Origin: a bacterium
GTDB lineage: Bacteria > JAMOTN01
DNA: 16,680 nucleotides
Direction of reading: 5' to 3'
NCBI GenBank assembly: GCA_027062325.1
Contig: JAMOTN010000075.1
Coordinates: 1-16,680, forward strand
Position 1 is the first letter of the stretch. Each line of letters opens with the position of its first letter. Under the pieces are notes generated by a model, which saw only the letters and a program-made list of their open reading frames with translations, ran no database searches and was not told the DNA's origin. Below are positions 588 through 16,338 of this stretch, piece by piece. Made by a program: the position numbers and the translations under genes.

Positions 588-618
588 GGGGGGCTTTGGT
601 GGCCCCCTTTTGTTTTAT
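588..618 (+). terminator. Intrinsic terminator after the KamA-family gene
   Basis: A GGGGGC / GCCCCC stem (589-594 with 602-607) encloses a 7-base loop, TTTGGTG, and is followed directly by the T-rich run TTTTGTTTTAT. This is the classic form of a factor-independent terminator. It sits 36 bases after the stop codon and upstream of the rpmF promoter, so it separates the two units. Confidence 0.9.
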
Positions 619-619
619 C

Positions 620-649
620 TTGAGAAAAAGAAAATGGTTGCTGTATAAT
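620..649 (+). promoter_or_regulatory. Sigma-70-type promoter for rpmF-plsX
   Basis: A -35 box TTGAGA (620-625) and a perfect -10 box TATAAT (644-649) are separated by 18 bases. Transcription would start near 656, leaving a leader of roughly 78 bases before rpmF. The promoter lies immediately downstream of the terminator at 588-618. The call rests on consensus match and position only. Confidence 0.7.
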
Positions 650-733: not shown

Positions 734-943
734 ATGGCAGTGCCAAAAAGGCATAAGTCAACAGCTCGTCGTAGAATGAGAGAGGCTATGTGGAGAAGAA
801 GACTTAGAATTCCTAATTTGGTAAAGTGTTCAAATCCTGCATGTGGCCAGCTCATAAGGGCACATCGTGTATGTCCTTACTGTGGGTGGTACAAGGGTAA
901 GCAGGTTTTAGAAGCAGAGGCTAAGGGAGAAGTCAACGTATAA
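734..943 (+). CDS. rpmF: 50S ribosomal protein L32
   Basis: A 69-residue basic protein that begins MAVPKRHKS, the near-universal start of bacterial L32, followed by an Arg-rich segment. Four cysteines (C32, C37, C47, C50) form a zinc-ribbon-like set, so this is the zinc-binding rather than the cysteine-free form. The first pair is spaced CxxxxC, two residues wider than the usual CxxC; the second is a normal CxxC. It is a structural protein of the large ribosomal subunit. A strong GGAGGG binding site (721-726) precedes the ATG. The gene stands 28 bases ahead of plsX, the widely conserved rpmF-plsX pairing that links ribosome and membrane-lipid synthesis. Confidence 0.96.
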   Translation: MAVPKRHKSTARRRMREAMWRRRLRIPNLVKCSNPACGQLIRAHRVCPYCGWYKGKQVLEAEAKGEVNV

Positions 944-971: not shown

Positions 972-1970
972 ATGGGAAATAGTGAGGTTACAGCTGTAGT
1001 TGATGCTATGGGAGGAGACAGAGCACCTGAAGAGATTGTGAAGGGTGCTCTGCTTTTTTTAAAAAGAAATAAAGGACTAAAAGGGTCTGTAAGGGTTGTA
1101 TTAGTTGGGGATAGAGAAAAGATTGAGTCTATATGTGGTGATTGTGCAGGAATTGAAATAATTCATACTGATAAATGGTTGGGGATGCATGAAAAATGGA
1201 ATAGGCGTGATAGAGAGAATTCTTTAGCAGTCTCGATGGATATTGTGAAGCAGCGGGAGAATGCTTTTTTAATTTCTGCAGGTAATACAGGAGCTGTTAC
1301 CGAAGGTTCATTTTTTACTTACAGAATGATTGAGGGGGTTAAAAGGCCTGCAATACCTACTATAATTCCAAGGTTTTACAAGAAAGAAGAGCCATTTGTG
1401 TTGTTAGATGCTGGAGCAAATGCTGATTGCAAACCAGAGTTTTTAAAGCAATTTGCAATAATGGGGGCTGCTTATTATACTGCTTTGTTTGGTAAAGCAC
1501 GTCCTAAAGTAGCGTTATTAAATATTGGTGAAGAGAATATAAAGGGAAATGCACTTGTGAAGGAAACGGATAAATTGATGAAGGATCACTCCAGTGATTT
1601 GTATGAGTATGTTGGATACATAGAGGGGCATACGATGTTTTCTGAAGATGTTGATGTTGTTGTAGCAGATGGATTTGTAGGAAATATCGTTTTGAAGAGT
1701 TTGGAGGGATTAGCTAAAGAGTTGTTGGGACTTATTAAGGATTCTGTATTTATGAAGTTAGGAGTATTTTTAAGTGGGTTGTATAAAAAGCTAAAATATG
1801 CAGATTATCGTGAATGGGGAGGAGCTCCACTGTTAGGAGTGAAAAGACTTGTGATTATTGCTCATGGGAGTTCGGATGCCAAGGCTATAGCTAATGGTAT
1901 TGATGTTGGTGTAAGGCTCACAGAGAGAGGGCTTATAGGTAGGATAAAAAGTATGATAGCAGAGGATTGA
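972..1970 (+). CDS. plsX: Phosphate acyltransferase PlsX
   Basis: PlsX makes acyl-phosphate from acyl-ACP and inorganic phosphate; PlsY then uses it to acylate glycerol-3-phosphate in phospholipid synthesis. The 332-residue length is normal. Family motifs appear in order: DAMGGD.AP near the N-terminus, SAGNTGA, RPAIPTIIP, LLDAGAN.DC, LLNIGEE..KGN, YVGYIEG and ADGFVGNIVLKS.EG. The ATG at 972 is preceded by a modest GTGAGGT ribosome site. The gene lies between rpmF and fabH and is probably transcribed from the 620-649 promoter. A second promoter follows in the plsX-fabH gap, so the downstream genes may also be expressed independently. PlsX is a peripheral membrane enzyme in characterised species. 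Confidence 0.97.
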   Translation: MGNSEVTAVVDAMGGDRAPEEIVKGALLFLKRNKGLKGSVRVVLVGDREKIESICGDCAGIEIIHTDKWLGMHEKWNRRDRENSLAVSMDIVKQRENAFLISAGNTGAVTEGSFFTYRMIEGVKRPAIPTIIPRFYKKEEPFVLLDAGANADCKPEFLKQFAIMGAAYYTALFGKARPKVALLNIGEENIKGNALVKETDKLMKDHSSDLYEYVGYIEGHTMFSEDVDVVVADGFVGNIVLKSLEGLAKELLGLIKDSVFMKLGVFLSGLYKKLKYADYREWGGAPLLGVKRLVIIAHGSSDAKAIANGIDVGVRLTERGLIGRIKSMIAED

Positions 1971-2035: not shown

Positions 2036-2095
2036 CATTGTAAGAAGTGTGCATTTAGATGTTAAATGAGTTATAGGTGTGAGGAGGCGAATGAT

Positions 2096-3088
2096 ATGTT
2101 TATTCCCATGAAGATTGCAGGATTAGGAATGGCTTTAGGGGATAAGGTTATAGACAATGACTGGTTTGTAAAAGAATTGGGACTGGATACATCAGATGAA
2201 TGGATAACTGAGAGGACTGGAATTAAAAAGAGGTACTTTCTTTCTGATCCAGATAAGGCTTTATCTTACATTGGTGCGAAGTCTGCACGGCAAGCTTTGG
2301 AAATGGCGGGGGTGAAGCCTGAGGATGTTGATTTAGTAATATGTGCTACTTTCACTCCCGATTATCAAATGCCTGCGACAGCGTGTTTGATAAAAGAAGA
2401 AATAGGTGCTAAAAATGCTGGAGCTTACGATATGCAGATTGCATGTAGTGGTTTTGTTTATGCGCTTATTAATGCTGCTTCTATGGTTGCGAGCGGTATG
2501 TTCAAGAACGTCTTGATAGTAGCCGGAGATGTGATTTCACGTTTTTTGGATTTTGAAGATAGAGGAACCTGTATCCTCTTTGGAGATGGAGCAGGAGCTG
2601 CTCTTATTACACAAGCTGAGAATGGAGAAGGAATATTTGCTGTTGAGGTTGGAGCAGATGGGAGTGCACCTGAGAAACTTTTGATTCCTGCAGGTGGAAG
2701 TGCGCGTCCTGCAAGTGAGGAAACGGTTAAGAATAAGGAGCACTATCTGCGTATGAATGGGCGTGAAATTTTCAGGTTTTCTGTGAATGTTGTTCCTCAA
2801 ACTATGAAATTACTCCTTGAAAAAAGTGGACTTTCTAAAGAGGAGGTTGATCTTTGGATTCTTCATCAGGCAAATATTAGAATAATAGAAGCTGCTGCAA
2901 AGCGCATGGGAGTTCCAATGAGTAAGATGTACAACACTATAGCTGAATATGGGAATATTAGTGCTGGAACTATTCCTATTACGATGTATGAGGCTTACAA
3001 AAACAATGTCTTAAAAAGAGGATCCATTCTTGGTCTTATAGGGTTTGGTGGAGGGTTAAGTTGGGGTGGTTTGATATTGAGATTTTAA
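2096..3088 (+). CDS. fabH: 3-oxoacyl-ACP synthase III (FabH)
   Basis: FabH starts fatty acid synthesis by condensing an acyl-CoA primer with malonyl-ACP. The Cys-His-Asn triad is visible: C117 in IACSGF, H257 in ILHQAN and N287 in YGNISAGT. GDGAGA and the C-terminal GFGGGLSWG are also typical. An in-frame ATG exists at 2066, but the strong GAGGAGG at 2081-2087 lies after it and exactly 8 bases before the ATG at 2096. I therefore start there (MFIPMKIAG), giving 330 residues, normal for FabH. The active-site block is ACSGF rather than the common ACAGF, a conservative change. It is the first gene after the internal promoter and precedes the dehydrogenase/EtfA pair. Confidence 0.95.
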   Translation: MFIPMKIAGLGMALGDKVIDNDWFVKELGLDTSDEWITERTGIKKRYFLSDPDKALSYIGAKSARQALEMAGVKPEDVDLVICATFTPDYQMPATACLIKEEIGAKNAGAYDMQIACSGFVYALINAASMVASGMFKNVLIVAGDVISRFLDFEDRGTCILFGDGAGAALITQAENGEGIFAVEVGADGSAPEKLLIPAGGSARPASEETVKNKEHYLRMNGREIFRFSVNVVPQTMKLLLEKSGLSKEEVDLWILHQANIRIIEAAAKRMGVPMSKMYNTIAEYGNISAGTIPITMYEAYKNNVLKRGSILGLIGFGGGLSWGGLILRF

Positions 3089-3138: not shown

Positions 3139-4260
3139 ATGAGTGTTTTGAAGTTTGTAAAGCGTCATATCAGGAACATGACGAATCAATTGGAGTGGGC
3201 AAGTGAAGAGGCGGATAGGACAGGAAACTATCCGGCGGAGGTTTTTGATCTTTTAAAAAAGAGTGGAATGTTTGCACTTCTCGCTCCCGAAAAAAGTGCT
3301 GGTGCTGGTTTGAGTTTTTCTGAATGGGTAGAAGTAGTTCGTGATGTTTCTTACTATTGCCCTTCAGCTGGAGCAATGGTTGCAGCTTTTAATGGGTTGG
3401 TTTTATTTCCCCTTGTTAGATTTGGTATGGGGAAGTTTGATGATTTGGTAAAGAGGATAGCCTCTGGTGAGATAACGGGGGCATTTTCAATAACCGAAAG
3501 AGATGCTGGTAGTGATGTAAGTTCTATAAAGACTGCCTTAATTGATGATCAGAAGGGATGGCGGATAAAAGGCTACAAGGTATTTGTATCGGGAGGTAGT
3601 ATAGCTGATTTCATAATAGCTTTTGCTAAGCACACGCGAAATGGAGAACTTACAAATAGAATAAGTGCGGTTGTTGTGCCGCGAGAAGCTTTCAAAGTTG
3701 TGCGTGATGAGGAAAAGATGGGTCTGAAGGGAACCTATACTTCAGAGGTTATCATAGATGGTTGGATTTCCAAGGATAATATCCTATTCAGGCCTCAGCT
3801 TGGATTCAAAGTGATAGCTGACACTTTGGATGTTGGAAGAGTTGGAATTGCAGCACAAGCAGTTGGTATAGCACAAAGAGCTTTGGATGAGGCGAAACGT
3901 TATATGAATGAAAGGACTCAATTTAATCAGAAATTACGTGAATTTCAGGGATTGCAGTGGTACATAGCAGATATGGCTACTGAGCTTGAGGCTGCATGGC
4001 AGTTAACCTTGAAGGCTGCTGCAGAACTTGCAAAGCCGGGAGGCCGTCCGACACGTTACGCTTCCATGGCAAAGTATAAGGCTGCAGAGGTTGCAAATTT
4101 TGTGGTAGATAAGGCGTTGCAAATATTTGGTGGTTACGGTTATGTTAAAGGAGCTGTAGTAGAAAGGTTATACAGAGATGTTAGAGTGTTGCGTATCTAT
4201 GAGGGGACTAGTGAGATTCAGAAGTTGGTTGTATTTCAGGAGGAGATGAAAGGAATATGA
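3139..4260 (+). CDS. Acyl-CoA dehydrogenase-family flavoprotein
   Basis: A 373-residue protein with the full acyl-CoA dehydrogenase fold. It has a helical N-terminal domain, the FAD signature SITERDAGSD (about 117-126), a middle beta domain, RVGIAAQAVGIAQ (about 234-246), QIFGGYGY (328-334) and C-terminal YEGTSEIQ. E355 in YEGT matches the catalytic base of short/medium-chain enzymes such as butyryl-CoA dehydrogenase, so it should be active. These FAD enzymes interconvert acyl and 2-enoyl thioesters and exchange electrons with ETF. AAGGGG (3125-3130) sits 8 bases before the ATG. It overlaps the EtfA-like gene by 4 bases (ATGA), so the two are co-translated. Its position between fabH and fabD, with no thiolase, hydratase or other beta-oxidation gene nearby, suggests a role in fatty acid synthesis. 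That role is inference; the family is certain. Confidence 0.93.
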   Translation: MSVLKFVKRHIRNMTNQLEWASEEADRTGNYPAEVFDLLKKSGMFALLAPEKSAGAGLSFSEWVEVVRDVSYYCPSAGAMVAAFNGLVLFPLVRFGMGKFDDLVKRIASGEITGAFSITERDAGSDVSSIKTALIDDQKGWRIKGYKVFVSGGSIADFIIAFAKHTRNGELTNRISAVVVPREAFKVVRDEEKMGLKGTYTSEVIIDGWISKDNILFRPQLGFKVIADTLDVGRVGIAAQAVGIAQRALDEAKRYMNERTQFNQKLREFQGLQWYIADMATELEAAWQLTLKAAAELAKPGGRPTRYASMAKYKAAEVANFVVDKALQIFGGYGYVKGAVVERLYRDVRVLRIYEGTSEIQKLVVFQEEMKGI

Positions 4261-5135
4261 GTAGTGTGAAAAATGATTGGAAGATTGCCTGTTTTCCTGA
4301 TATAGGAGCAAGGACAGATGTAGTTAATTGGGCAAGAAGGCACTTTCCAAAGGCTCACATAGTTTCGTTTTGGTTGAGAAATCCTGTTGATGCTGATAGT
4401 GATGAGGTGTACAAGCTTGAGGTAAGTAATACCTCTCCGTTTGAATTTGGAAAGCTTTTAGCAGAGTTTACCAAAGCTGAAAATTATGACTTGTTTGTGT
4501 TTCCTGCAACTTATGAAGGAAAGGTGGCTGCAGGAGTTCTAGCAGCTGCATTGGGATTAGGAGCAGTGTCGGATGTTGAGTTTGTTAAAGAGGAGCTTTA
4601 TTACAAAAGTGTTGCAGATAATTTAGTTGGTATGAAGATTTTGTCAAGTAGAGCAGTGATTACGGTATCAGGATGGCTTGAGCTTGTTAAAGAGGCTTCT
4701 GGTGATTTCTCAACTAAGGTGCTTGAGGTTAAGGAAGATGTGTTGAATAGAGAATTTCAAAAGATAAAAGGAAAGGGAAGGCTGATAATAGGAATAGGTG
4801 GAGGAGTTTCGAAGAGTGCTATGCCCCTTGTTTTGCGTTTAGCAGAGTTGTTAGGGGCGGATATTGTGGGAACGCGAGTTGCTTTTGACAGAGGTTTAAT
4901 AGATAAATCTCGGTATGTAGGGCAAACTGGTATAAGTATAAACGGTGATATATACCTTGCACTTGGAATTTCTGGAGCTGCTCAGCATATGATAGGTGTT
5001 CCAAAGAGAATGAAGATTATTGCAGTAAATGTGGATGAGAAGGCTCCAATTGCTGCACTTAGTGACTACTTTGTTAAGGAGAGGGCAGAGGATTTTGTGA
5101 GAGCTATGGTGGATATGCTTGAGGGGAAAGCGTGA
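4257..5135 (+). CDS. Electron transfer flavoprotein alpha subunit-like protein
   Basis: The C-terminal part (about 174-290) is a canonical EtfA FAD domain: GRLIIGIGGG, GTRVAFDRG, VGQTG, DIYLALGISGAAQH and NVDEKAPI. The N-terminal domain (about 1-165) is more divergent but keeps FPATYEGKVAAG..AAALG, typical of EtfA domain I. At 292 residues it is somewhat shorter than most EtfA proteins, with the deficit in the N-terminal half. EtfA normally pairs with EtfB to carry electrons to or from acyl-CoA dehydrogenases; no etfB is present here. The start codon overlaps the stop of the preceding dehydrogenase, so the products are very likely partners. fabD follows after 13 bases. The family is clear; whether it works with a remote EtfB or without one cannot be told. 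Confidence 0.9.
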   Translation: MSSVKNDWKIACFPDIGARTDVVNWARRHFPKAHIVSFWLRNPVDADSDEVYKLEVSNTSPFEFGKLLAEFTKAENYDLFVFPATYEGKVAAGVLAAALGLGAVSDVEFVKEELYYKSVADNLVGMKILSSRAVITVSGWLELVKEASGDFSTKVLEVKEDVLNREFQKIKGKGRLIIGIGGGVSKSAMPLVLRLAELLGADIVGTRVAFDRGLIDKSRYVGQTGISINGDIYLALGISGAAQHMIGVPKRMKIIAVNVDEKAPIAALSDYFVKERAEDFVRAMVDMLEGKA

Positions 5136-5148
5136 GGAGGGATAGAGT

Positions 5149-6045
5149 ATGCTTTTCATGTTTCCAGGTCAAGGAAGTCAATATGTAGGAATGGGCAAGA
5201 ATTTATATGAAAACTTTGATGTGGCCAAGAAAATGATGGATAGCGCTAATGAAATTTTAGGGTTTGACATTGTAAAGCTCATGTTTGAAGGGCCTGAGGA
5301 AGAGTTGAAAAAGACTTTGAATACTCAGCCTGCAATATTTTTAGTGTCAGTAGTTGCTGATGCTGTATTGAAAGAGAAAGGCTATGAGCCGACCGTGGTT
5401 GCAGGTCACAGCGTAGGAGAGTATGCAGCTCTTTGTTCAGCGGGGGTTGTTAGTTTTGAAGATGGGTTGAGATTGGTTAGAAAGAGAGGAGAGTTTATGT
5501 ATGAAGTGAAAGGTGGAGCAATGCTTGCAGTAGTGGGACTTTCAAAGGATATGATAGAAGAGGCTTGTGCAGGTAAAGATGCGTGGATTTCTTTATTTAA
5601 CACTGATACTCAAATTGTATGTTCAGGTACAGAAGAGGCTATAGATCAGCTTTATGCTGAATTGAGTAATAAGGCCAAGGAGGCAGGAATTAGAAGGTGT
5701 AAGTTGGTTAAGTTGAAGGTAAGCGGACCTTTTCACTGTCCGCTTATGAAAAAGCCTGCTGAGAAGTTGGCTAGTGAAATTGAAAAAGTTGAGTTCAAAG
5801 AGCCTAAAGTTGATGTTGTGCCAAATGTTACTGCTAAACCAACCCGTGATGTTGATGTATTGAAGAAAGCGCTGATTGATCAGATGATAGAACCTGTTAG
5901 ATGGTGGGAGAGCGTTATGGTTATAAAGGAAAGTGGAGTGGATAAAGCCTTTGAGGTTGGGCCAGGAAAAGTTTTGAAGGGGATGGTAAGACGCCTGTTT
6001 AAAGAGGTTGTATCGTTCCCAGATGATGGAATAGACAAAGTTTAA
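5149..6045 (+). CDS. fabD: Malonyl-CoA:ACP transacylase (FabD)
   Basis: FabD transfers malonyl from CoA to ACP, supplying the extender unit used by FabH and FabF. The 298-residue protein opens with FPGQGSQYVGMG and has the nucleophile S88 in AGHSVGEY. R113 in RKRGEFM is the likely malonate-carboxylate-binding arginine, and the active-site histidine is H196 in GPFHCPLM. The C-terminal FEVGPGKVLKGM motif is also standard. A GAGGAGG site (5134-5140) overlaps the stop codon of the EtfA-like gene and lies 8 bases before the ATG, which fixes the start. fabG begins 13 bases after it. Nothing is unusual apart from the upstream flavoprotein neighbours. Confidence 0.96.
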   Translation: MLFMFPGQGSQYVGMGKNLYENFDVAKKMMDSANEILGFDIVKLMFEGPEEELKKTLNTQPAIFLVSVVADAVLKEKGYEPTVVAGHSVGEYAALCSAGVVSFEDGLRLVRKRGEFMYEVKGGAMLAVVGLSKDMIEEACAGKDAWISLFNTDTQIVCSGTEEAIDQLYAELSNKAKEAGIRRCKLVKLKVSGPFHCPLMKKPAEKLASEIEKVEFKEPKVDVVPNVTAKPTRDVDVLKKALIDQMIEPVRWWESVMVIKESGVDKAFEVGPGKVLKGMVRRLFKEVVSFPDDGIDKV

Positions 6046-6058
6046 TGGAGGGGTTATT

Positions 6059-6751
6059 ATGGACAAGTGGGTAGTTGTAACAGGAGCAGGTAGGGGAATT
6101 GGGCTTGCTATAGCTCGTGAACTTAAAAATGCAGGATACAAAGTTGCGGGATTTTCGCGCTCTACGGATCCTGCAGAAGGAGTATTTGATTACTACGATA
6201 AGCTTGATGTATCAGATTTTGAGGCTGTTAAGAATTTTGCTTCTAAGATAGAGGGTGAAGTTTGGGCAATTGTGAATAACGCAGGAATTACAAAAGATGC
6301 GTTGTTTGCTCGAATGACAGAAGAGGACTTCGACAAAGTTATAGCTGTTAATTTGAAAGGGGTTTTTAACGTCTGCAAGGCTTTTGAGGCAAAACTCAGG
6401 AAAAGTAAGGGAGTCATTGTTAACATAACTTCTATTTCTGGGCTATACGGTAATGTTGGACAGGCAAACTATGCTGCTAGTAAGTCAGCTTTGATAGGTT
6501 TTACCTACACGCTTGCTAAGGAATATGGCCGTTATGGGGTGAGAGCTGTAGCTGTTGCCCCAGGTTTGATTGAGACAGATATGAGTGCAAAGATTCCAGA
6601 GAAGATAAAGGAACAGATGAAGTCCATGATACCGCTTAAGCGCTTTGGAAAGGTAGAGGAAGTGGCCAAGTTGGTTAGATTTCTCATATCTGAGGATGCT
6701 TCTTACATAACAGGAACCTGCATAGAGGTTGCAGGAGGGTTCAGATTTTAG
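6059..6751 (+). CDS. fabG: 3-oxoacyl-ACP reductase (FabG)
   Basis: A short-chain dehydrogenase that reduces 3-ketoacyl-ACP to 3-hydroxyacyl-ACP with NAD(P)H. It shows the Rossmann glycine motif TGAGRGIG (8-15), NNAG (73-76), N98 in AVNLKG, the catalytic S125, and Y138 and K142 in YAASK, followed by APGLIETDM. At 230 residues it is about 15 shorter than typical FabG; the loss lies around residues 33-50, after the second beta strand, where cofactor preference is set. A GGAGGGG site (6047-6053) precedes the ATG. Its place between fabD and acpP is the usual fab order and supports FabG over another dehydrogenase of the same superfamily. Confidence 0.93.
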   Translation: MDKWVVVTGAGRGIGLAIARELKNAGYKVAGFSRSTDPAEGVFDYYDKLDVSDFEAVKNFASKIEGEVWAIVNNAGITKDALFARMTEEDFDKVIAVNLKGVFNVCKAFEAKLRKSKGVIVNITSISGLYGNVGQANYAASKSALIGFTYTLAKEYGRYGVRAVAVAPGLIETDMSAKIPEKIKEQMKSMIPLKRFGKVEEVAKLVRFLISEDASYITGTCIEVAGGFRF

Positions 6752-6807: not shown

Positions 6808-7050
6808 ATGACTCGTGAAGAAGTGTTTTCAAAGGTAAAGGATTTGCTTGCTCAGTCAATAGGAGAGGATAAAGCAGATTCCATTACAGAGGATGCTCTC
6901 TTGATGGATGATCTTGGACTTGATTCTCTCGAAACTATGGATTTGATTATGAATCTTGAGAGTGAGTTTGGAATTTCCATTCCTGATGAGGATATTGAGA
7001 AAATTAAAACTGTGGGAGATGTTGTGAACTACATAATGGAGAAAATATAA
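6808..7050 (+). CDS. acpP: Acyl carrier protein
   Basis: An 80-residue acidic, all-helical carrier protein. S40 in the GLDSLETMDLIM motif is the attachment site for 4'-phosphopantetheine, which holds the growing acyl chain during fatty acid synthesis. The downstream ESEFGI.IPDEDIEKI..VGDV pattern is the standard helix III/IV region. A strong AAGGGAGGG site (6791-6799) precedes the ATG, fitting a protein made in high amounts. It is flanked by fabG and fabF as in many bacteria. A stable hairpin 20 bases after its stop (7071-7102) probably raises acpP output relative to the genes below. Confidence 0.97.
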   Translation: MTREEVFSKVKDLLAQSIGEDKADSITEDALLMDDLGLDSLETMDLIMNLESEFGISIPDEDIEKIKTVGDVVNYIMEKI

Positions 7051-7070
7051 GTGTTGTTTAATTAAAAACG

Positions 7071-7109
7071 CGGGCAGGTGCTTCTTGTGAAGTGCCTGCT
7101 CGTTTGTTG
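7071..7109 (+). terminator. Strong hairpin between acpP and fabF (probable partial terminator)
   Basis: Bases 7071-7084 pair with 7089-7102 in an uninterrupted 14-bp stem (three G-T wobbles) with a 4-base loop, TTGT. A-rich sequence precedes it, and a short T-rich run (TTTGTTG) follows. It resembles an intrinsic terminator with a weak U-tract. Because fabF and rnc follow in the same direction, it is best read as a leaky terminator or an RNA-stabilising 3' end for the acpP message. A TATACT at 7112-7117 could be a -10 box, but I see no well-spaced -35. Confidence 0.7.
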
Positions 7110-7143
7110 ATTATACTCAATAAATGATTGAGGGGTGGTTGAG

Positions 7144-8376
7144 TTGAAAAGGGTTGTCGTTACGGGTATTGGATTGGTGACGCCTATTGGTTTGACAAAA
7201 GAGTTCAGAAATGGGATTTTTGAAGGAAAAAACGGAGCAGACTTAATAACTCGATTTGATGCTAGTGATGTTGGTAGTAAAGTTGCAGCAGAAGTCAAGG
7301 ATTTTGATCCTACGCCATGGATAGATAAAAAAGACTTGAAGCGTATGGATCTTGCTACTCAGTATGCTGTTGTAGCAGCGGCGCAAGCAATGGAAGATGC
7401 TGAATTGGAAGGAAAATTTGATCCAGAAAGAGCTGGGGTTATTGTTGGCTCCGGAATTGGTGGAATTGGTACAGTTGTTGAGCAAACACTAATTTGTGAG
7501 CAGCGTGGTGCCCGCCGTGTTTCACCGTTTATGATCCCAATGCTCATAGTAAACATACCTGCTGCAACTATTGCGATACGTTGGGGATTTGAGGGGGTTA
7601 ATTTTGCAGTTGTTACAGCTTGCGCAAGTGCGGCTCACTCAATTGGGGAGGCTTTCTGGAAGATAAGGAGTGGCCAACTTGATGTAGCTTTGGCTGGTGG
7701 AACTGAAGCAGCAATAATTAAGGTGGCTGTTGCAGGATTTTCTAACATGAGGGCACTTACTACCCGTAACGATGATCCAGAGCATGCTTCTCGTCCGTTT
7801 GATAAAAATAGAGACGGCTTCTTGATGGGAGAAGGGGCAGGAATTTTGGTGCTTGAGGAACTTGAACATGCTAAAAAGAGGGGCGCCAAAATTTATGCAG
7901 AAATTGTGGGATACGGTGCAAATGATGATGCGTATCACATGACAGCCCCGCATCCAGAGGCAAAGGGAATGGCCAAGTGTATGGAATTGGCCTTGAAAGA
8001 TGCAGGAATTAAACCAGAGGATATAGGTTATATCAACGCCCATGGAACAAGTACTCCTCTTAATGATAAAACCGAAACTCTGGCGATAAAGAAGGTATTT
8101 GGAGATCATGCTTACAAACTGAAGGTAAGCAGCACAAAGTCAATGATAGGTCACCTCTTGGGGGCAACTGGAGCTGTAGAAGCAGCAGCTGTTGTGTATT
8201 GTTTGCAGGAACAAAAAGTGCATCCAACGATAAATTACGAGGAGCCAGATCCAGATTGTGATTTGGATTACACTCCTAACAAAGCAGTGGAGTGGGAGTT
8301 TGAGTACGCACTTTCAAATTCTTTTGGATTTGGAGGACACAACGCATCGCTGGTGTTCAGAAAATGGAGCGAGTAG
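7144..8376 (+). CDS. fabF: 3-oxoacyl-ACP synthase II (FabF)
   Basis: FabF elongates acyl-ACP by condensation with malonyl-ACP. From the start chosen here the catalytic residues are C160 (TACASAAHS), H300 ([11 protein letters not shown]), K332 (STKSMIGH) and H337 (GHLLGATG); GFGGHN lies near the C-terminus. A GTG at 7135 is in frame but falls inside the GAGGGGTGG Shine-Dalgarno sequence. The TTG at 7144 is 8 bases after GAGGGG and gives the canonical N-terminus [10 protein letters not shown], so I use it (410 residues, normal). Transcription probably comes from read-through of the hairpin after acpP or from a weak local promoter. The 3' end overlaps rnc by 13 bases. Confidence 0.95.
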
Positions 8377-9056
8377 ATTATTCTCTTATAGAAAAAAAGG
8401 CGCATGTAGCGCTTAGGGATGTAAAAAAGACTGTCCGAATGTTGGTGCACTACTTTAACAATGCTGGTAAGCTAGAGTGGCGTACACATAAATCTATTGA
8501 TGTAAAGTCAAACTATGAGGACCTGGAGTTTGTTGGAGATGCATTGATAAATTGGTTGGCAGCACGTTTTTTATTCACGCGTGGTGTAAAAATAGAGGGA
8601 ATGTCGTCTGAGGGAAGTTTGACCTTTATAAGAAGGCGTTTGGTTGATGAAAAGGCTCTTGCTTACTTTGCGAAAGTTGTGGGGTTGGATAAATACATCC
8701 TGATTAACGATGCTAATTCTAAGACTCTTTCGGTATTGTCTGATGTAGCTGAAGCTTTCGCGGCCCAAGTTTGGTTTGAGTTTGGGGAGAAAAAGGTTGA
8801 GGAGATATTTACAGCTTATTGGTCAGTTGTTCTTGAGTTTGTAAATGAAAATACAGTTATTGATCCTAAGACTAGATTGAATAAGTATATTCAAAAGAAC
8901 CACTTGAATATAGAGTATGTCTATACTACAAAGGAAAAAGAGCATGTATGTTTAATAAAGGTTGGCGGTATCCCCATAGCTTATGGAAAAGATTACGTAA
9001 AAAAAGAGGCAGCCCAGAAGGCGGCATTTGAGGTTGGCAAAATTTTAGGGATTTAA
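8364..9056 (+). CDS. rnc: Ribonuclease III
   Basis: RNase III cleaves double-stranded RNA in rRNA maturation and mRNA turnover. The nuclease domain (about 10-155) has a divergent signature ([10 protein letters not shown]) but keeps the acidic residues expected at the metal sites: E52, E55, D59, D127 and E130. A double-stranded-RNA-binding domain follows (about 165-228: [12 protein letters not shown]..., ending [13 protein letters not shown]). The 230-residue length is normal. The usual SGGR motif before the second acidic cluster is absent (NDANSKTL instead). Its ATG lies inside the end of fabF (13-base overlap), so translation is coupled. The acpP-fabF-rnc arrangement is common in bacteria. 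Confidence 0.92.
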
Positions 9057-11641: not shown

Positions 11642-12031
11642 TTGAAGTCATTTGTGGTTTACTTTGTTGTTGCAGTAGGTGGTGCAATTGGGGCTGTACT
11701 TAGGTATTTTGTCTCTGGGATTTTCGCAAAGTGTTGTGGTTTTCTATTTCCGTGGGGAACGTTGGTTGTCAATTTGATGGGGGCTCTTTTCATAGGATTT
11801 ATTTCAGGAATCAGTGAAGAGTTATTATTGAATCCCGAGTGGCGGCTTTTTTTAATGATAGGTTTATTAGGGGGATTTACTACATTTTCTACTTATGTTC
11901 TTGAAACTTACAATCTTTTTGTTGATGGGGAGAAGCGAGTAGCTGTGTATAACGTTTTGCTGAACAATTTTCTGGGAATGTTGATGCTTATATTGGGATT
12001 TGCAGCGTCTAGGATGATTTTGAGAAAATGA
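11642..12031 (+). CDS. crcB: Fluoride ion channel FluC/CrcB
   Basis: A 129-residue, four-helix membrane protein of the Fluc family, which exports toxic fluoride as a dual-topology dimer. Diagnostic motifs are GGAIGAVLRY (13-22), WGTLVVNLMGA (38-48, with the conserved Asn44) and GGFTTFSTY (77-85), which carries the pore phenylalanines and central sodium-site residues in characterised members. The start is TTG at 11642, set by the strong AAAGGAGGAG at 11627-11636. It is followed 40 bases later by a DUF190 gene, a frequent partner. I see no fluoride riboswitch in the 37 bases upstream. Confidence 0.93.
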   Translation: MKSFVVYFVVAVGGAIGAVLRYFVSGIFAKCCGFLFPWGTLVVNLMGALFIGFISGISEELLLNPEWRLFLMIGLLGGFTTFSTYVLETYNLFVDGEKRVAVYNVLLNNFLGMLMLILGFAASRMILRK

Positions 12032-12071
12032 GAGAAAAGGTGGGCAAAGGTGTGTTTGGAGGGGAGAAAGC

Positions 12072-12428
12072 ATGAGTAGTGATAATAAAATAACACTCCC
12101 TGAAGATGGAATGCTTCTTAGGATATTTATAGGCGGTTGGGATAGAAAGGATGGTAGGCCACTTTATGAGTACATCGTATTGAAAGCACGTGAGATGAAG
12201 TTGGCAGGGGCTACTGTCCTGCGGGGAGTTATGGGGTTTGGTGCCAATAGTCATCTTCACACTGCAAAAATATTACGGTTATCGGAAGATTTGCCTATAG
12301 TGATAGAAATGGTTGATACGGAGGAAAATATAAAAAGTTTTCTTCCATTTTTAGAAGAAGTTGTAGATGATGGATTGATTACTCTTGAACGTGTTAAGAT
12401 TCTTCGCTACAAAGCAAAGAGGGGATAA
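12072..12428 (+). CDS. DUF190-family (PII-like) protein
   Basis: A 118-residue protein matching DUF190: LLRIFIGGWDRKDGRPLYEYIV, then AGATVLRGVMGFG, LPIVIEMVDTEE and a final LERVKILRYK strand. Family members adopt a PII-like ferredoxin fold and are often encoded beside crcB/fluC, as here; a sensing or regulatory role is suspected but not established. The pattern of a GFG turn after ATVLRGV and a Glu-rich helix is kept. A GGAGGGGAG site (about 12058-12066) precedes the ATG. The ABC ATPase begins 2 bases after its stop, so it may be co-transcribed with the transporter as well as with the fluoride channel. Confidence 0.88.
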   Translation: MSSDNKITLPEDGMLLRIFIGGWDRKDGRPLYEYIVLKAREMKLAGATVLRGVMGFGANSHLHTAKILRLSEDLPIVIEMVDTEENIKSFLPFLEEVVDDGLITLERVKILRYKAKRG

Positions 12429-15964: not shown

Positions 15965-15987
15965 GTGCAGCTTTGGAGGTGTTTGAT

Positions 15988-16338
15988 TTGAAGAATTGGT
16001 TTTGGATGATAGTTGGAGCAATTGGCGGCTTTTTAGCGGCTTCGTGGTTGAAAGGTAGAGAGATAGTGTCGTCGCAGGAGAAGAAGGCTGTACGTTTTTT
16101 CTACCATGATCCAAATGCTAAGAGTGTGGCAGTTGTTGGTGATTTCAATGGGTGGGATGAGACTAAGGATCAGATGTTTAATATGGGCGGAGGTCTGTGG
16201 GAAGCTGTCATATACTTGGAGCCCGGAGAGTATGAGTATAAGTTTGTAATTGATGGAGAAAAGTGGATTGAAGATCCAAATGCGAAGAAGTTTATAGATG
16301 ATGGTAAGGGAAGAAGAAGTATCGTTACAGTTGAGTAA
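15988..16338 (+). CDS. Membrane-anchored CBM48/AMPK-beta-like domain protein
   Basis: A 116-residue protein with one hydrophobic N-terminal helix (about 4-20), a short linker, and a C-terminal E-set domain (about 33-116). The domain resembles the glycogen-binding module of AMPK beta and the N domain of branching enzymes: VAVVGDFNGWD (47-57), LWEAVIYLEPGEYEYKFVIDG (70-90), a W93 and DPNAKK. These modules bind alpha-glucans or serve as structural domains; there is no enzyme domain here. A start at TTG 15973 is possible in the same frame, but GGAGGTG (15975-15981) points to the TTG at 15988. Its end overlaps the start of the LptF/LptG-like gene, linking it to an envelope function. The function is unknown. 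Confidence 0.8.
   Translation: MKNWFWMIVGAIGGFLAASWLKGREIVSSQEKKAVRFFYHDPNAKSVAVVGDFNGWDETKDQMFNMGGGLWEAVIYLEPGEYEYKFVIDGEKWIEDPNAKKFIDDGKGRRSIVTVE

Follow-up and report, generated by a model that had tools for sequence, protein, structure and literature searches.

Each elongation cycle of bacterial fatty acid synthesis ends with the reduction of enoyl-ACP, and the enzyme that performs it is the target of triclosan and isoniazid. In operons of many Firmicutes, the slot between fabH and fabD is that of fabK. The bacterial enoyl-ACP reductases (ENRs) covered by a 2022 review, FabI, FabL, FabL2, FabI2, FabV, FabMG and FabK, are SDR or NMO proteins using NAD(P)H, and the terms acyl-CoA dehydrogenase, electron transfer and flavoprotein are absent from that review (PMC9260719). 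Among open-licence papers, we found no report of an enoyl-ACP reductase made up of an acyl-CoA dehydrogenase (ACAD) and ETF. The nearest likenesses to the acd-etfA gene pair considered here are Bcd-EtfAB (PDB 5ol2) and CarCDE (PDB 6fah), which likewise bring together an ACAD and EtfA (with EtfB) carrying FAD and are able to reduce a 2-enoyl thioester. Unlike these complexes, the present pair lies in a fab operon without etfB, belongs to genomes in which canonical ENRs were not found, and has fab-specific residues at alignment columns 84 and 152; its EtfA lacks both the ferredoxin domain and the stretch TRPAFGGN...PQMATVRP. FabK, the FMN-containing enoyl-ACP reductase II, resembles it in the proposed reaction and in flavin chemistry but folds as a TIM barrel and has an NAD(P)H site of its own, and FabI, FabL and FabV, which catalyse the reaction proposed for the pair, differ as NAD(P)H-dependent Rossmann SDR enzymes. 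Two further systems deserve comparison. FabX of Helicobacter pylori is also a flavoprotein acting on acyl-ACP within type II fatty acid synthesis (FAS II), but it belongs to the NMO family, contains [4Fe-4S] and runs as a dehydrogenase/isomerase (PMC8626469). The acyl-ACP dehydrogenase MbtN (NCBIfam NF037942) is an ACAD annotated for an ACP-bound acyl chain; it serves a siderophore side chain in the oxidising direction, and the present Acd scores 122 bits against that model's cut-off of 700.

The window, by which we mean the whole stretch of DNA analysed, is an entire contig of 16,680 bases (C75) from a MAG of 1.65 Mb that is 83.9% complete and 0.2% contaminated. On it rpmF-plsX-fabH-acd-etfA-fabD-fabG-acpP-fabF-rnc form one operon, with acd and etfA between fabH and fabD. 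Its features are as follows.

588..608, + strand: terminator-like hairpin at the end of the upstream KamA-like gene, with an 8 bp stem followed by a T run (pattern match only)
620..649, + strand: sigma-70-like promoter TTGAGA-18-TATAAT before the operon, 11/12 matches (pattern match only)
734..943, + strand: rpmF (ribosomal protein L32), the operon's first gene, read from the sequence MAVPKRHKSTARRRMREAMW...CSNPACG..CPYCG
972..1970, + strand: plsX (TIGR00182, 285 bits, above cut-off)
2066..3088, + strand: fabH (TIGR00747, 351 bits, above cut-off)
3139..4260, + strand: acd, 373 aa, an ACAD-family protein by its Pfam domains and the proposed flavin enoyl-ACP reductase
4201..4203, + strand: codon of Glu355, the catalytic base of Acd by alignment of the YEGTSEIQ motif
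4257..5135, + strand: etfA, 292 aa, a short ETF alpha with an intact FAD-binding domain and without a ferredoxin domain (Pfam, AlphaFold2/Foldseek)
5149..6045, + strand: fabD (TIGR00128, 320 bits, above cut-off)
6059..6751, + strand: fabG, the genome's only PF13561 SDR (open reading frame and family profile matches)
6808..7050, + strand: acpP (TIGR00517, 80 bits, above cut-off)
7135..8376, + strand: fabF (TIGR03150, 632 bits, above cut-off)
8364..9056, + strand: rnc (ribonuclease III), closing the conserved block (by sequence; aligned with the genes in the rnc position of loci L136 and L143)

A sequence-only reading of this DNA had noted plsX, fabH, fabD, fabG, acpP and fabF without an enoyl-ACP reductase, and the profile matches agree, no protein of a known ENR type being encoded in the window. 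The same reading had described an acd gene with intact Glu355, translationally coupled to an EtfA-like gene between fabH and fabD, which the open reading frames and Pfam domains confirm: the acd stop and the etfA start share an ATGA overlap at 4257-4260 with GGAGGAG upstream. The gap between etfA and fabD is 13 nt, and a pattern scan across fabH, acd and etfA up to the fabD start found no terminator-like hairpin. Further downstream, acpP and fabF are separated by a strong hairpin of 15 pairs with a T-rich run after it (7070-7103), a possible attenuator that could reduce fabF and rnc relative to acpP.

The search for another reductase took in FabI/FabL, FabK/NMO and FabV, with FabMG-type and MDR reductases outside its range. 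Searching the MAG with PF13561 returned a single SDR, FabG, and no protein matched the E. coli FabI query. FabK/NMO proteins were not found in the MAG at a threshold that detects the family in 14 of 14 control genomes, and neither was FabV. Acd itself is an ACAD and thus neither an NMO/TIM-barrel protein over the TIGR03151 cut-off, as FabK would be, nor a protein of SDR fold with an ENR signature, as expected of FabI, FabL or FabV. FabA/Z was considered as the missing step and rejected, since FabZ is encoded in the MAG as an LpxC-FabZ fusion (L055:1444-2856, G000:C64). The next gene is, judged by its sequence, LpxA, and the lineage thus seems to be a diderm that makes lipid A. With FabZ present and no other ENR found, FAS II in the recovered sequence is complete except for enoyl reduction, for which the sole candidate is the pair in the operon. 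The main caveat is that a canonical ENR could be encoded in the missing 16% of the MAG. Within these bounds, the genome-wide check that the earlier reading had called for came out in its favour: acd-etfA is a gene pair in a fab operon of a genome in which no other ENR of the types searched was found.

The assignment of Acd to the ACAD superfamily is secure, all three domains being over their Pfam cut-offs (PF00441, 6e-47; PF02770, 4e-18; PF02771, 2e-10) and Glu355 aligning with the Glu of the YEGTSEIQ motif in C. difficile Bcd and rat SCAD. Its best PDB matches are CarC of the caffeyl-CoA reductase and C. difficile Bcd (E 7e-66), both from ETF-linked enzymes that reduce enoyl-CoA, and its identity to generic ACADs from many phyla is 37-41%. 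A genome-wide search showed it to be the only ACAD of the MAG. The earlier remark that no thiolase or enoyl-CoA hydratase accompanies it holds for the window.

Its partner is an ETF alpha by domain content (PF00766, ETF_alpha, 2e-19; ETF domain, 2e-7) and by fold. G181, R207, G222, G225, S239, Q243, H244 and N258 are among the residues invariant in 58 EtfAs, consistent with an intact FAD-binding domain. The AlphaFold2 model has a mean pLDDT of 85, and its top Foldseek matches are all EtfA chains; their global TM-scores of 0.4-0.6 are modest, which may reflect variable placing of the two domains. The MAG encodes this one EtfA and one EtfB, the latter on another contig (G000:C4:4614-5363), so that EtfB is not encoded with EtfA as it is in bifurcating ACAD-EtfAB systems. 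This EtfB keeps D121, has GSYTQDSATSFVP in place of the GRQAIDGDTAQVGP of clostridial Bcd-linked EtfBs, and is divergent around the second flavin site. A gene for a class III aminotransferase, translationally coupled to etfB, starts within the etfB end (L296:4614-6685, G000:C4). Nearby on the same contig, a gene resembling aldehyde:ferredoxin oxidoreductase was recognised by eye.

Is this arrangement found elsewhere? The phylum of the window genome is represented by a single sampled genome. Searching 386 genomes sampled across the domain with Acd returned generic ACADs at about 40% identity, and when the gene contexts of 20 of the best matches were inspected, fab genes were present in one (G256). 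The phylum of that genome (39 genomes) yielded three further acd-etfA fab operons, in G386, G387 and G388. In G386, the order is pta-plsX-fabH-acd-etfA-fabD-fabG-acpP-fabF-rnc-radical SAM, equal to the window from plsX through the radical SAM gene; locus L143 has the window's order plsX-fabH-acd-etfA-fabD-fabG-acpP-fabF-rnc, and L093, L135 and L136 have acd-etfA-fabD-fabG-acpP...fabF. In all four operon genomes, acd and etfA are adjacent in that order directly upstream of fabD, and etfB never lies between acd and fabF. Conservation of the pair in fab operons of other genomes, which the earlier reading had asked to be checked, was thus seen at the corresponding position in a second phylum. There the operon EtfAs carry a fused two-cluster ferredoxin domain, resembling that of bifurcating or confurcating complexes, which the window EtfA lacks. 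A contig scan with EtfA found no relative, and one with the Acd alignment returned 80 generic ACAD loci of named organisms, none of which (0/80) has fab genes within 9 kb. A fab block beside an ACAD occurred in no other ACAD context examined, with the partial exception of a PKS-type region of G080, G221 and G351. The joint occurrence of Acd, EtfA, FabD-like and FabF-like proteins in G080 and its relatives was rejected as a case, being a beta-oxidation cluster beside a PKS-like gene and not a fab operon.

A tree of the Acds unites the four operon sequences from the second phylum in one clade (SH-aLRT 95), separate from that phylum's other ACADs, and places the window Acd on a long branch of unsure position. 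Holding all five fab-operon Acds together gave a better tree than the free search and was not rejected (p-AU 0.79), so that the tree is compatible with one origin as well as with two.

Residues shared by the operon Acds were sought in an alignment of 183 ACADs, the five fab-operon Acds and 178 others, by picking columns that separate the second phylum's four operon Acds from the rest, with the window Acd left out of the choice. At the strictest threshold (frequency elsewhere below 6%), two columns remain, and their codons in acd are these.

3388..3390, + strand: codon of Phe84; hydrophobic in 5/5 fab-operon Acds; 96% of the 178 others have a polar residue here, mostly His/Asn/Gln
3592..3594, + strand: codon of Gly152; Gly in 5/5 fab-operon Acds and in 4/178 others, which otherwise mostly have Asn

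A hydrophobic residue 84 together with Gly152 occurs in 5/5 fab-operon Acds and 0/178 other ACADs, and among the 179 sequences left after the choice of columns, the window Acd alone has both. At looser thresholds four columns qualify, of which the window Acd has two, and 5 of the 179 sequences have two or more, so that the test is weaker there. Column 84 we take to be on the helix lining the acyl pocket, and column 152 presumably comes directly after the Thr/Ser contacting the flavin. The shared signature is suggestive support for a fab-specific role of the operon Acds.

The distribution of other reductases within the second phylum bears on this role. In the four operon genomes, 89-97% complete, no FabI and no FabK passes the curated cut-offs. 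Among non-operon genomes, one family has an NMO that qualifies as a true FabK (cut-off 453 bits; the two genomes tested score 476 and 460), and seven genomes from three other families have strong FabI matches (E 1.2e-53 to 5e-68). The pair sits in the operon where the reductase that usually completes fatty acid synthesis would be, and as part of a second phylum shows the same swap, it probably performs that step. Still, Acd need not be the sole reductase in every relative. While G386 has no NMO, the NMOs of G256 and G387 coexist with acd-etfA and match FabX far better than FabK (best PDB 9lt5/7e1q, E about 1e-67 to 1e-66; PMC8626469 lists FabX as 7e1q), reaching 110-126 bits with the FabK model. 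G388 encodes an NMO between acpP and fabF of the acd-etfA operon itself (L136:5370-6323), which has a Cys-rich C-terminus and is intermediate between FabK and FabX in character (184 bits on the FabK model). In addition, G386 and G256 have, next to a second fabG, a divergent FabI-like SDR with the signature Yx2Mx3K that scores 152-157 bits where the cut-offs are 362-391 (L193:266-3300 and L196, respectively), followed in G386 by a phosphopantetheinyl transferase-like protein; this SDR may be a genuine ENR or may belong to a ketide pathway of its own. The case for Acd as the sole ENR is therefore strongest in the window genome, then in G387 and G388. ENR absence alone is not decisive, since a strong FabI, a strong NMO and a close ACAD are all missing from some genomes of this phylum, for example G390, G392, G404 and G405.

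On balance, we consider it likely that Acd with ETF is an ACAD-type enoyl-ACP reductase serving FAS II, run in the reducing direction, as the sequence-only reading had supposed; the lack of a canonical ENR among those searched and the matching position in a second phylum support it. In such a scheme, FabH/FabF, FabG and FabZ would make trans-2-enoyl-ACP, which the reduced flavin of Acd (FADH2) would convert to acyl-ACP with Glu355 as acid/base. EtfA would pair with the genome's only EtfB and reload the Acd flavin with electrons, whose ultimate source might be NADH and/or a donor at the level of ferredoxin. The enoyl/acyl couple lies near 0 mV, so NADH could drive the reduction with energy to spare. 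The scheme builds on the gene order and coupling, the catalytic and flavin motifs, the absence of the other reductase types searched, the recurrence in a second phylum and the shared active-site residues; from these we infer ACP as the carrier, the reducing direction and the electron donor, with or without bifurcation. More tentatively, the pair might stand for a further mechanistic class of ENR, fed by ETF, and in the relatives with ferredoxin-fused EtfA the strongly exergonic reduction of enoyl-ACP might drive that of ferredoxin in a coupled reaction, and making fatty acids would then itself conserve energy; we think this possible rather than probable. What would be new is a pathway role for known protein families.

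Let us assume, alternatively, that Acd is a catabolic or fermentative ACAD, acting for example on butyryl- or branched-chain-acyl-CoA, that is co-transcribed with the fab genes, and that a canonical ENR lies in the missing part of the MAG. A genome 84% complete leaves space for this, the 37-41% identity of Acd to generic ACADs of many phyla would be natural, and the coupling of etfB to an aminotransferase gene, together with the end of a KamA-like gene upstream of the operon, fits amino acid fermentation. That gene is, however, set apart from the operon by the terminator-like hairpin and the promoter-like site, and the genome has no second ACAD for either role. The scenario also does not account for the same slot, gene order and residue pair in four genomes of another phylum, in which FabI and FabK over cut-offs are lacking in spite of 89-97% completeness, and we regard it as unlikely.

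A quite different possibility is that Acd runs as a FabX-like acyl-ACP dehydrogenase for unsaturated fatty acids, oxidising acyl-ACP to trans-2-enoyl-ACP with ETF as acceptor and thus feeding an isomerisation. ACADs commonly oxidise with ETF as acceptor. FabX is a precedent for dehydrogenation within FAS II (PMC8626469). Yet the elongation cycle would then be left without a reductase, no other ENR having been found in the genome, and a separate NMO of FabX type is already encoded in two of the operon relatives, while the NMO of a third has a comparable Cys-rich C-terminus, all of which makes this reading improbable to a degree that the catabolic one is not. Lastly, the pair might have a side role, altering an envelope acyl chain or coupling redox state to lipid synthesis, while an unrecognised reductase reduces the chain. 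The precedent would be FabMG from a soil metagenome, an ENR without clear sequence similarity (PMC9260719), and such families were outside our search; the position between fabH and fabD, the intact catalytic Glu and the flavin motifs point instead to core catalysis, and we give this last scenario very little credence.

If Acd and ETF do act as the enoyl-ACP reductase, the step would draw on another electron pool than the NAD(P)H-using ENRs, would be expected to be insensitive to inhibitors of SDR or NMO folds, and would be filled in genomes apparently without any ENR. The position of acd-etfA between fabH and fabD, combined with residues 84 and 152, offers a search marker for further cases, and the pair is a directly testable candidate.

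A few minor observations concern the remaining genes and the short EtfA type. Near the contig edge lies the part of a radical SAM gene that encodes the C-terminus of a KamA-like protein of the lysine 2,3-aminomutase family (22-552). A CrcB-like gene followed by a DUF190 gene lies at 11642-12428, and at 15973-16338, directly after dnaN, a membrane-anchor-like N-terminus is joined to a glycogen-binding (AMPK1_CBM/CBM48) domain. The stretch TRPAFGGN...PQMATVRP of domain I, missing from the window EtfA, is by eye likewise missing from the short EtfAs of G013 (L034:9167-10788) and G161 (L048:8710-10322), members of another family of small genomes (1.4-1.7 Mb), where this short EtfA type has an adjacent EtfB and the genome encodes at most a few ACADs.
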